Positions 3,949 to 15,769 of a DNA stretch of 64,000 nucleotides are shown here, piece by piece. Numbering within the stretch: position 1 is the first letter of the stretch; the number at the start of each line of letters is the position of its first letter. Source of the DNA: an alpha proteobacterium AAP38 (lineage in GTDB: Bacteria; Pseudomonadota; Alphaproteobacteria; Azospirillales; Azospirillaceae); the NCBI GenBank assembly GCA_001296005.1, contig LJHR01000009.1:558001-622000 (forward strand), written 5' to 3'. A model generated the notes under the pieces. The model did no database searches, was not told the origin of the DNA, and saw nothing but the letters and a program-made list of their open reading frames with translations. The translations under genes and the position numbers were made by a program.

Positions 3949-4088
3949 GCATGCCATTCCCACATCTGCAAATCAGCAGAACCGACCTGCACCTCAGGTG
4001 CAAGTTCCACAATGGCAATTCCGTCCCTTGACCATGTGGGGCCGGACGCGCGACATCTGGGGGAAGCTTTACCGATGGACCCCGCCCC

Positions 4089-13897: not shown

Positions 13898-14662
13898 TTA
13901 CCGTGCGGCCTTTGCCTTGCGCTTGGCCCGGTACATGCCGGCGTCGGCACGGCGGATCAGGTCTTCTTCCTGGTCGCCGACGCCAAAGGCCTGCATACCG
14001 AAACTGGCGCGCATGGGCAGGGACTGCATCTGCCACTGGCAGGATTGGGCGTTGAAGATACTGGACAGCATCTCTGCCCGCGCCATGCCCTGGGTCTGAT
14101 CGGTATGGGTCAGCAGCACCGCGAACTCGTCACCGCCGAACCGGGCAACGATGTCGTTGGCGCGGACATTGTCCTTCAGGATGCGGGCCGCCTGGCGCAG
14201 ATACCAGTCGCCGCAGAGATGGCCGTGACTGTCATTGACGCCCTTGAAACCATCCAGATCGATGATGACCAGGACACCGCCCATGCCCGTCCGCCGGGCC
14301 ATCGCCAACTCGCGATGGAAGGCCTCGACAAAGCCGCGGCGGTTCAGAAGGCCGGTCAACTCGTCCGTCATGGACAAGGTTTCAAGATGTTCGATTCGTT
14401 CCTTCTGCTCCGTGATCTTCGCCTCCGCTTCCCGAAGGCGCATGATCGTGTCCTGCAAAAGGAAGACATAGGTATCCGCATTCATCGACACGGGGCCAAG
14501 GTCCGGGGCCACGGGGTTCCCCAGGCCGCCGACGACACTGCGTGCCAGGTTATGCAAGCTGTTGGTCTGTTGTGGGGCAGCGCCGGGGAAAGCCGACAGG
14601 CCACGATCCAGGCCACGAGCCATCGTCATCGGACGGGTCTGGACACTATCGAACGGGCTCAT
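13898..14662 (-). CDS. GGDEF diguanylate cyclase
   Basis: The 254-residue protein has an uncharacterised N-terminal 65 residues, a coiled-coil-like helix at about 70-97, then a GGDEF domain with an intact active site, FGGDEF at 175-180. An RxxD inhibitory site (R167-D170) lies five residues before GGDEF, so feedback by c-di-GMP is expected. No membrane segment or named sensor domain is visible. A consensus sigma-54 promoter lies about 31 nt upstream of the start, and GGGGAG precedes the ATG. The gene should thus make c-di-GMP under sigma-54 control, perhaps tied to motility or nitrogen state. Confidence 0.93.
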   Translation of the reverse strand: MSPFDSVQTRPMTMARGLDRGLSAFPGAAPQQTNSLHNLARSVVGGLGNPVAPDLGPVSMNADTYVFLLQDTIMRLREAEAKITEQKERIEHLETLSMTDELTGLLNRRGFVEAFHRELAMARRTGMGGVLVIIDLDGFKGVNDSHGHLCGDWYLRQAARILKDNVRANDIVARFGGDEFAVLLTHTDQTQGMARAEMLSSIFNAQSCQWQMQSLPMRASFGMQAFGVGDQEEDLIRRADAGMYRAKRKAKAAR

Positions 14663-14682
14663 AGTCTACTCCCCTAAATGGG

Positions 14683-14705
14683 CTGATACTCCGCACCGGT
14701 ATCAG
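14683..14705. promoter_or_regulatory. 23-bp dyad over the transcription start of the GGDEF gene
   Basis: CTGATAC and GTATCAG are perfect 7-bp inverted arms around a 9-bp spacer. The outer arm overlaps the -12 box of the sigma-54 promoter and the dyad spans the predicted start near 14693. It could be a repressor site; only part would be transcribed, so an RNA hairpin is less likely. Confidence 0.5.
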
Positions 14706-14719
14706 CAAGGGGTGTGCCA
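14704..14719 (-). promoter_or_regulatory. Consensus sigma-54 (RpoN) promoter of the GGDEF gene
   Basis: Read on the minus strand the site is TGGCACACCCCTTGCT. It matches the consensus TGGCAC-N5-TTGCW exactly, with invariant GG at -25/-24 and GC at -13/-12 and correct spacing. The predicted start is near 14693, giving a leader of about 31 nt with the GGGGAG ribosome-binding site. The activator is not known from this window. Confidence 0.75.
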
Positions 14720-14923
14720 TTCGAAAAATCTCATAAAAACAATGGGTTGAAATTCGACCTTGGCTGCCACGTTCCTGCCGCGCTGCAGTTCTTGCCGGGT
14801 GGCCCCGGTGCCGGTGTGGCAAATGCTGCCCAGTCGCCCCCTCATCCTTCCTGCCGTGCGAATGCCCGTTGCGGCGGACCGTTCGCGGGCGCAAGATGAT
14901 CACCTTAGCCATCACCCAGGCCC

Positions 14924-15769
14924 ATGCCCAACGTGACCGCCCTTTCCCGCGCCCGCCGCACCGCCCGCCCCGCCGTCGCCTTTGCCCTGGCCCTGCTGCT
15001 GGGCAGTGCCGGTACTGTTCCGGCTTTTGCCCGCACTGCCATCGATATCGCACCGCACAAGGCGACATATCGTCTGAAGCTGGACCATGCGCGGCTGCAA
15101 AGCGGCATTACCGATGTGAACGGGCAGATGAGCTTTTCCTGGAATGATGCCTGCGATGGCTGGACCATCGATCAGCGGTTCCAGGTCCGCTTCTCCTATG
15201 CCGAAGGGGAAGACATGAACCTCATCACCAACTACGCGACGTGGGAGGCGAAGGACGGTTCTGCCTATCGCTTCAATGTTCGCAAGCTGGTGAATGGCGA
15301 AGTGGATGAGGAACTGTCCGGCGGTGCCACGCTGGACGGGAAGGGTGGCGGCAATGTCCGTTATGACAAGCCGGAGTCGCGGTCGATGCCGCTGAAACCC
15401 GGCACAATGTTCCCCACGGCCCATACGCTGCGTGTGCTGACACAGGCCGGATCACCGGAAAATCTGTTCTCCGTGCCCGTGTTCGACGGGGCGGAGGCGG
15501 AGGGGGCAAGCCCCGTCAACACTATCGTGGGCAAGCTGCGATCCCCCGCCGTGATGAAGGTGAAGGATGCCGATCTGCTGGCCGCGAAGGCGTGGCAGGT
15601 GTCGCTGGCCTTCTTCCCCATCAATCCCGGTGAACCGCTGCCGGATTACGAGACCAGCATGGTCTTGCAGGAAAACGGCGTGGTCCGGTCCATGCTGGTC
15701 GATTACGGCGATTTCCGGGTCTCCATGGAGCTGGAGACCCTGGAAAAGGCTGGCAAGCCGCCCTGCTGA
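14924..15769 (+). CDS. eipB: Cell-envelope integrity protein EipB family (DUF1849)
   Basis: The 281-residue periplasmic protein has a signal peptide of about 36 residues ending FARTAID. The domain is the beta-spiral DUF1849 fold, which in Brucella supports envelope stability. Two mature-chain cysteines are visible, one in NDACDGW and one at the C-terminus (KPPC). They match the disulfide conserved in this family. The upstream 260 bp contain the sigma-54 promoter of the divergent GGDEF gene; I see no clear promoter for this gene. Confidence 0.85.
   Translation: MPNVTALSRARRTARPAVAFALALLLGSAGTVPAFARTAIDIAPHKATYRLKLDHARLQSGITDVNGQMSFSWNDACDGWTIDQRFQVRFSYAEGEDMNLITNYATWEAKDGSAYRFNVRKLVNGEVDEELSGGATLDGKGGGNVRYDKPESRSMPLKPGTMFPTAHTLRVLTQAGSPENLFSVPVFDGAEAEGASPVNTIVGKLRSPAVMKVKDADLLAAKAWQVSLAFFPINPGEPLPDYETSMVLQENGVVRSMLVDYGDFRVSMELETLEKAGKPPC

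Follow-up and report, generated by a model that had tools for sequence, protein, structure and literature searches.

The diguanylate cyclase locus

The window, by which the whole analyzed stretch of 64,000 nucleotides is meant (G000:C62:558001-622000 of a 5.78 Mb genome), harbors on its minus strand a gene encoding a diguanylate cyclase (DGC) of 254 amino acids (13898..14662), which according to Pfam and a motif check comprises a variable N-terminus, a stretch that appears coiled-coil-like by eye, and a GGDEF domain featuring an RxxD inhibitory site (I-site). PF00990 (E=1.4e-39) is the only Pfam domain of this presumably soluble protein, the RxxD motif RAND being located at residue 167 and GGDEF at residue 176, so that the catalytic and inhibitory sites are indeed as intact as a preliminary description of this DNA had claimed. 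Judged by these active-site and inhibitory-site motifs, the window protein is an intact DGC. The canonical GGDEF motif with RxxD five residues before it recurs in 111 of the 116 homologues that were checked out of 140, while the other five retain RxxD and carry GGDEF altered to GGDEY, AGDEF, GGDEL, HGDEF or SGDEF.

Upstream of the gene lies the putative sigma-54 core promoter TGGCACACCCCTTGCT (14704..14719, minus strand), with GG at -24 and GC at -12. It was found by means of TGGCAC-N5-TTGCW, which we take to be the consensus of sigma-54 cores, and it is the sole match to TGGCACN5TTGCW without mismatch in the window. The exact RpoN consensus with correct spacing, as described before, is thus present from 14719 to 14704. 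If C14705 is taken as -12, +1 falls near 14693, i.e. 31 nt before the ATG at 14662. The predicted leader (14663..14693, minus strand) carries the ribosome site GGGGAG and agrees with the 31-nt leader that had been proposed ahead of the GGDEF gene. RpoN is encoded in the same genome (PF04552, E=1.8e-66), and the locus thereby combines a GG/GC core, an rpoN gene and a conserved activator-like upstream site. With regard to abundance, 28 sites with at most two mismatches to the core occur in the window versus 40.75 expected from shuffles, i.e. below chance, while the genome contains 179 sites with at most one mismatch versus 126 for the reversed pattern, as well as 19 exact cores, some of which are situated within long reading frames. 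Judged by these abundances, a single core site would be unconvincing without its conservation. A second copy of the identical 16-mer TGGCACACCCCTTGCT resides elsewhere in the genome (L047, C56:63406), between a pspF-like activator gene (L085) and a pspA-like gene, both named by eye, and has no GGCA-N5-TGCC within 400 bp.

GGCA-N5-TGCC palindromes further upstream of the core had been overlooked in the preliminary description. The distal one, GGCAGCATTTGCC (14818..14830, minus strand), is a perfect, enhancer-like palindrome centered at about -131 and recognized by motif and conservation, whereas the proximal one, GGCAAGAACTGCA (14784..14796, minus strand), is centered at about -97, recognized by motif, and deviates from GGCA-N5-TGCC by one mismatch. 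In the congeners L005-L010 the proximal element is perfect at the same distance. Both elements resemble what we take to be the ftr consensus of the flagellar regulator FlbD. The window contains four copies of GGCA-N5-TGCC versus 4.01 expected, which is chance level, and a genome-wide search for GGCAAAAAYTGCC with at most one mismatch revealed no enrichment (12 versus 19 for the reversed pattern). Because its frequency in the window equals chance, the element is informative only beside a core, by position and conservation. Both elements fall, within window 14784-14923, into the intergenic region that the DGC gene has in common with a divergent EipB-like gene (14924..15769, plus strand; PF08904, E=2.1e-72). 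This neighbor is not counted among the components of the system, and it might also be FlbD-responsive.

Conservation among homologues

Homologues of the DGC were collected at a cut-off of E<=1e-38 and are present in 69 of 82 genomes of the family Azospirillaceae and in 76 of 385 genomes of the class; a search at the level of the order led to the same 82 genomes. Examination covered all 69 family loci (45 + 24, the window's own included). Outside the family it extended to 71 of 72 class loci, G305 being omitted owing to a stop in its frame. In a tree of 136 rows, homologues and GGDEF paralogues were separated with three label changes, the minimum being two: L154 groups with the paralogues, and L216, which has a long branch, is placed with the homologues. 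Since the tree does not cleanly separate these two, the term homologue is preferable to orthologue at the depth of the class. The DGC appears dispensable for having flagellar genes, because the congeneric genome G071 retains the flgE-type combination of element and core described below without a DGC homologue at E<=1e-38.

A core was scored when GG and GC were kept, with at most one mismatch and a distance of 220-400 nt to the DELTGL motif of the GGDEF domain. Such a core precedes 57 of the 69 Azospirillaceae DGC genes and 56 of the 71 other alphaproteobacterial ones, i.e. 113 of 140 in all, and the core-positive class loci outside the Azospirillaceae are spread over 35 of 42 families. Without the distance filter, dinucleotide shuffles lead to expected numbers of 0.45 in 45 and 0.8 in 71, compared to 33 and 57 seen. 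Read on the opposite strand, these regions are devoid of cores with at most one mismatch (0/140, composed of 0/45, 0/71 and 0/24). Likewise, none was detected in a control of 20 selected GGDEF paralogues from the same family of bacteria (0.25 expected), of which the own genome supplied four. In this control the region to be scanned was placed relative to the frame opening, which differs from the procedure for the homologues, and L213 was cut by the contig end. Upon admission of two mismatches the core is found in 66 of 69 family and 66 of 71 class loci, compared to 10 of 140 regions when the other strand is read. A weakened core, CGGCAYN5TTGCG, characterizes seven genomes of one genus (L012-L014, L016, L017, L019, L020), and 14 of the 71 class loci feature no core with at most one mismatch in the region, while that of L126 lies beyond the distance range. 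Among named records, those of Niveispirillum and Azospirillum hold the nearest homologues, and a contig scan yielded five Niveispirillum/Azospirillum loci plus two of Colwellia. The homologue of Azospirillum brasilense Sp7 (NZ_CP012915.1) possesses the exact core together with two perfect GGCA-N5-TGCC elements. Conservation among homologues therefore supports the earlier reading as a sigma-54 promoter far beyond what the single site could provide.

The upstream element is conserved to a different extent in the two groups. At least one perfect GGCA-N5-TGCC occurs within 150 bp upstream at 60 of 69 family loci (38/45 + 22/24) and at 30 of the 66 class loci, out of 71, that passed the core and distance filter; accordingly, a perfect element is absent upstream in nine of 69 family and 36 of 66 class regions. 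The spacer length is specific: variants with N0-N4 and N6-N8 were found at 0/45 family loci and at most at 1/66 class loci each, while N9 occurs at 8/45 family loci and N12 at 6/66 class loci. Other palindromes composed of the same letters reach at most 7/45 in the family and 1/66 in the class.

A separate observation concerns the leader of one genus (g3), where GAAGTGTTCCGACCTTCATCNGAGGAGCCGACCCC, extending approximately from the predicted start to the ATG, is nearly identical across nine loci (L022-L024 and L026-L031), while the bases just 5' of it vary. Leader-level control is possible in this genus.

Flagellar promoters, the candidate activator and alternative readings

In the window's own genome, a perfect element is located within 400 bp of five of the 19 exact cores. 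These belong to fliF (element at +134), a gene that is fliK-like by eye and has no Pfam hit (+123 and +146), flgF (-67), a transglycosylase-like gene (-94) and the DGC gene (-111); no element lies within 400 bp of the exact core that precedes flgD (L032). The transglycosylase-like gene (L247:528-1460, contig C29), whose match to PF01464 (E=0.011) is below the cut-off, is a possible flagellar muralytic enzyme gene by virtue of its position behind an element and an exact core.

A search of 11 genomes of the genus, which was blind to the gene and demanded an element, 45-106 bp and a core, was carried out in two parts (21 and 12 rows), each of which matched 10 of the 11 genomes, while the reversed pattern gave 0. 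The resulting 33 rows precede the DGC gene (13 rows in 8 genomes), flgE-type genes (9), flgF (7), flgK (2), one transglycosylase-like gene and one TPR gene, and no other gene types. One example per gene type was scanned and the others were named by the same or a similar N-terminal sequence; the scanned flgF and flgK examples exceed their NCBIfam cut-offs, and the flgE-type example exceeds only that of the FlgEFG subfamily model. In the class, a search for an element, 45-75 bp and a core across 115 genomes matched 20 times, with 15 genomes represented, and again 0 times with the reversed pattern. Ten of these are flagellar, namely five flagellins, three FlgE/F-type genes (two of them from the own genome), flgI and fliK. 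The remainder comprises one unknown, a weak FlgN-like gene, an unnamed gene in five copies and three GGDEF genes; among the latter, L272 was identified through its location as the gene also represented by L154, and the genome of L269 had no hit at E<=1e-38. The five copies (L256, L257, L263, L264, L265) share a motif like FxDxLDxxNPLQHLP and have no Pfam match, so this gene is a possible uncharacterized member of the flagellar regulon. Taken together, the DGC promoter shares its upstream element with promoters of flagellar hook, rod and filament genes.

This gene association makes FlbD the candidate owner of GGCA-N5-TGCC. FlbD is encoded together with fliF and flhA in one cluster on one strand (L097), its product scoring 768.1 bits against the equivalog model NF050807 (cut-off 750), and FliX is encoded in the own genome at C3:83144 (PF10768, E=1.2e-35). 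In the class, FliX is present in 71 of 76 DGC-positive versus 137 of 309 DGC-negative genomes, an association with an odds ratio of 17.8 (Fisher p=1.4e-16, uncorrected for kinship); the five DGC-positive genomes without a FliX match are G136, G217, G275, G414 and G459. A further palindrome, GGCAAAAAATGCC, is situated about 115 bp before the FliX match (L131, C3:83016-83028), and fliX or its neighbor may also be controlled by FlbD.

With regard to these findings, the DGC very probably belongs, without being a structural component, to the FlbD/sigma-54 flagellar regulon (class III/IV-type), through which c-di-GMP synthesis would be tied to flagellar assembly. In the corresponding scheme, sigma-54 RNA polymerase would form a closed complex on the -24/-12 core and wait there until FliX, as in Caulobacter, licenses FlbD once the early basal body has been built. 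FlbD would then bind the ftr-like GGCA-N5-TGCC elements at about -97 and -131, loop to the polymerase and open the promoter, jointly with those of flgE, flgF and others. As a consequence, a small DGC would be produced at the hook/filament stage, its output being capped by feedback inhibition via the I-site, and c-di-GMP formation would be coupled to flagellar assembly, with the motor, surface attachment or exopolysaccharide as conceivable later targets. The maintenance of this arrangement in many Alphaproteobacteria suggests, as far as can be read from the genomes, that this c-di-GMP signal is made only during flagellum building.

An activator other than FlbD might own GGCA-N5-TGCC and drive the DGC gene via sigma-54, given that the genome encodes ten strong PF00158 enhancer-binding proteins alongside three weak matches. 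Such an arrangement is nevertheless unlikely, since the element adjoins the cores of fliF, flgE-type genes, flgF and flgK, where, according to the available portions of the respective papers, FlbD is the activator in Caulobacter (PMC3930126, PMC3096577), and since FliX co-occurs with the DGC.

Quite improbable, in turn, is a lineage-specific operator for a second regulator, i.e. a repressor, at -12/+1. The preliminary description had deduced such a regulator from a dyad with 7-bp arms across the -12 box and the start. The dyad is there, GCTGATAC-N9-GTATCAGC at 14682..14706, with arms of 8 bp instead of 7. Its 7-bp form has a single perfect copy in the genome, looser copies with at most three mismatches number 155 versus 62 for the reversed pattern, and three species keep CTGATAC and GTATCAG at most 46 nt from the core start. 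In 2000 dinucleotide shuffles of the 261-bp intergenic region (spacer 3-20), a 7-bp-arm dyad arose in 22% and an 8-bp-arm dyad in 5%; the operator reading becomes slightly likelier because 8-bp arms are less expected by chance than 7-bp arms, and the dyad remains borderline against chance because 5% of shuffles are as good. The window as a whole contains 48 distinct 8-bp-arm and 130 distinct 7-bp-arm dyads. Against an operator, the three carriers (3 of 140 loci, L002-L004) are close species, with proteins 96-100% identical to the query and nearly identical leaders, and the dyad was not found at the other 137 loci, including the congeners L005-L007 (75-80% identical); some other 8-bp-arm dyad lies near the core in three homologues (L188, L159, L280). 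Hence, the dyad is most likely incidental, and the second regulator deduced from it finds no support.

Nitrogen control, in which NtrC or NtrX would activate the DGC gene via sigma-54, is very improbable. Two enhancer-binding proteins that are NtrC/NtrX-like by eye and by place are encoded within 20 kb (L077, L086), and a DGC of A. brasilense is bound by the PII protein GlnZ, but this control, as described in the accessible part of that report, acts at the protein level (PMC7646526). The candidate NtrC-like palindrome TGCAC-N4-8-GTGCA was rejected, as it is found within 250 bp upstream of the core at 0 of 140 homologue loci; the element conserved there is common to flagellar genes instead. The earlier proposal that c-di-GMP is tied to nitrogen or motility status is consequently well supported in its motility part, through the elements common to hook, rod and MS-ring promoters, and unsupported in its nitrogen part. 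In the window, the only match to TGCAC-N5-GTGCA is the palindrome TGCACCTCAGGTGCA at 3988-4002, upstream of a frame that starts at about 4090 and is aminotransferase-like by eye.

Finally, a coincidental core with transcription from another promoter is scarcely credible: +1 is predicted and some of the 19 exact cores in the genome lie inside long reading frames, but 35 of 42 families keep the core at a constant distance, and the opposite strand has none at one mismatch or fewer.

Comparison with known systems

Polar flagellates still pose the question of how the building of a flagellum is connected to the swim-or-attach switch that c-di-GMP operates. The conserved DGC, having the promoter type of hook-class genes, provides one gene, one promoter and one candidate activator that can be examined across the class, including the plant-associated A. 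brasilense Sp7. We consider the chances about even that the Alphaproteobacteria inherited a dedicated flagellum-licensed DGC, whose gene is switched on by the FlbD/FliX checkpoint together with hook and filament genes. If so, the cell would arm its own c-di-GMP stop/attach signal at each flagellum built.

Several DGCs and regulatory circuits lend themselves to comparison. Caulobacter DgcA (CC3285) is depicted, in the accessible text of the source, as an active DGC to which no physiological role is assigned (PMC3764195); it resembles the window DGC in being a DGC without an assigned role, a likeness that goes by description only. The A. brasilense protein CdgA and the conserved set of Azospirillum DGCs are, according to excerpts of the study, GGDEF proteins conserved in the bacterial family to which the window's genome also belongs, likewise compared by description, and the words 'promoter' and 'sigma' are absent from the main text of that study (PMC5845226). 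In Phaeobacter inhibens, five GGDEF/EAL genes are reported, in the available part of the paper, to be down two- to fourfold in cckA, chpT and ctrA mutants (PMC12363192). Flagellar regulators and c-di-GMP genes thus move together there, which represents a related coupling; unlike in the present case, it proceeds via the CtrA pathway, and the part of the paper at hand names neither a sigma-54 promoter nor an FlbD target for a DGC. In Bradyrhizobium diazoefficiens, FlbD-FliX affects flagella, exopolysaccharide and biofilm, as stated in one sentence of one report (PMC8921679) and listed as a reference in another (PMC12918737); unlike the present analysis, neither mentions a link to a DGC there. 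Among the literature matches listed, which were mostly without subscription papers and supplements, were partly given as excerpts and constitute weak evidence of absence, no FlbD- or sigma-54-controlled DGC of the Alphaproteobacteria was found.

Caulobacter DgcB (CC1850), a stator-associated DGC of the surface-sensing pathway that is coupled via MotAB according to the accessible sections of the literature (PMC7885107, PMC11580411, PMC3764195), shares with the window DGC the connection to the flagellum. It differs in that its coupling runs via the MotAB stator and, in a comparison by residue numbering that draws on part of the source, in the catalytic glutamate, which was mutated at position 261 in DgcB versus position 179 here; because of this offset, the N-terminus of DgcB is longer than that of the window DGC. 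A flagellum-licensed DGC would be a transcriptional counterpart to this stator-based route and could explain the control of exopolysaccharide by FlbD-FliX in some species.

A close parallel is the FlbD-FliX/sigma-54 regulon of Caulobacter crescentus. In Caulobacter, as far as the available passages of the literature relate, FlbD is licensed by FliX and acts through ftr elements, to which it binds; it represses fliF and, together with sigma-54, switches on the later promoters of the flagellar cascade (PMC3930126, PMC3096577). The -24/-12 core, the genes for FlbD and FliX, and the palindromes near flagellar promoters, including the fliF core, are alike in both cases. Unlike in C. crescentus, the target described here is a signaling enzyme and not a flagellar part, and the identity of GGCA-N5-TGCC with ftr is putative. 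As a signaling enzyme, the DGC would be an unusual member of the known FlbD regulon.
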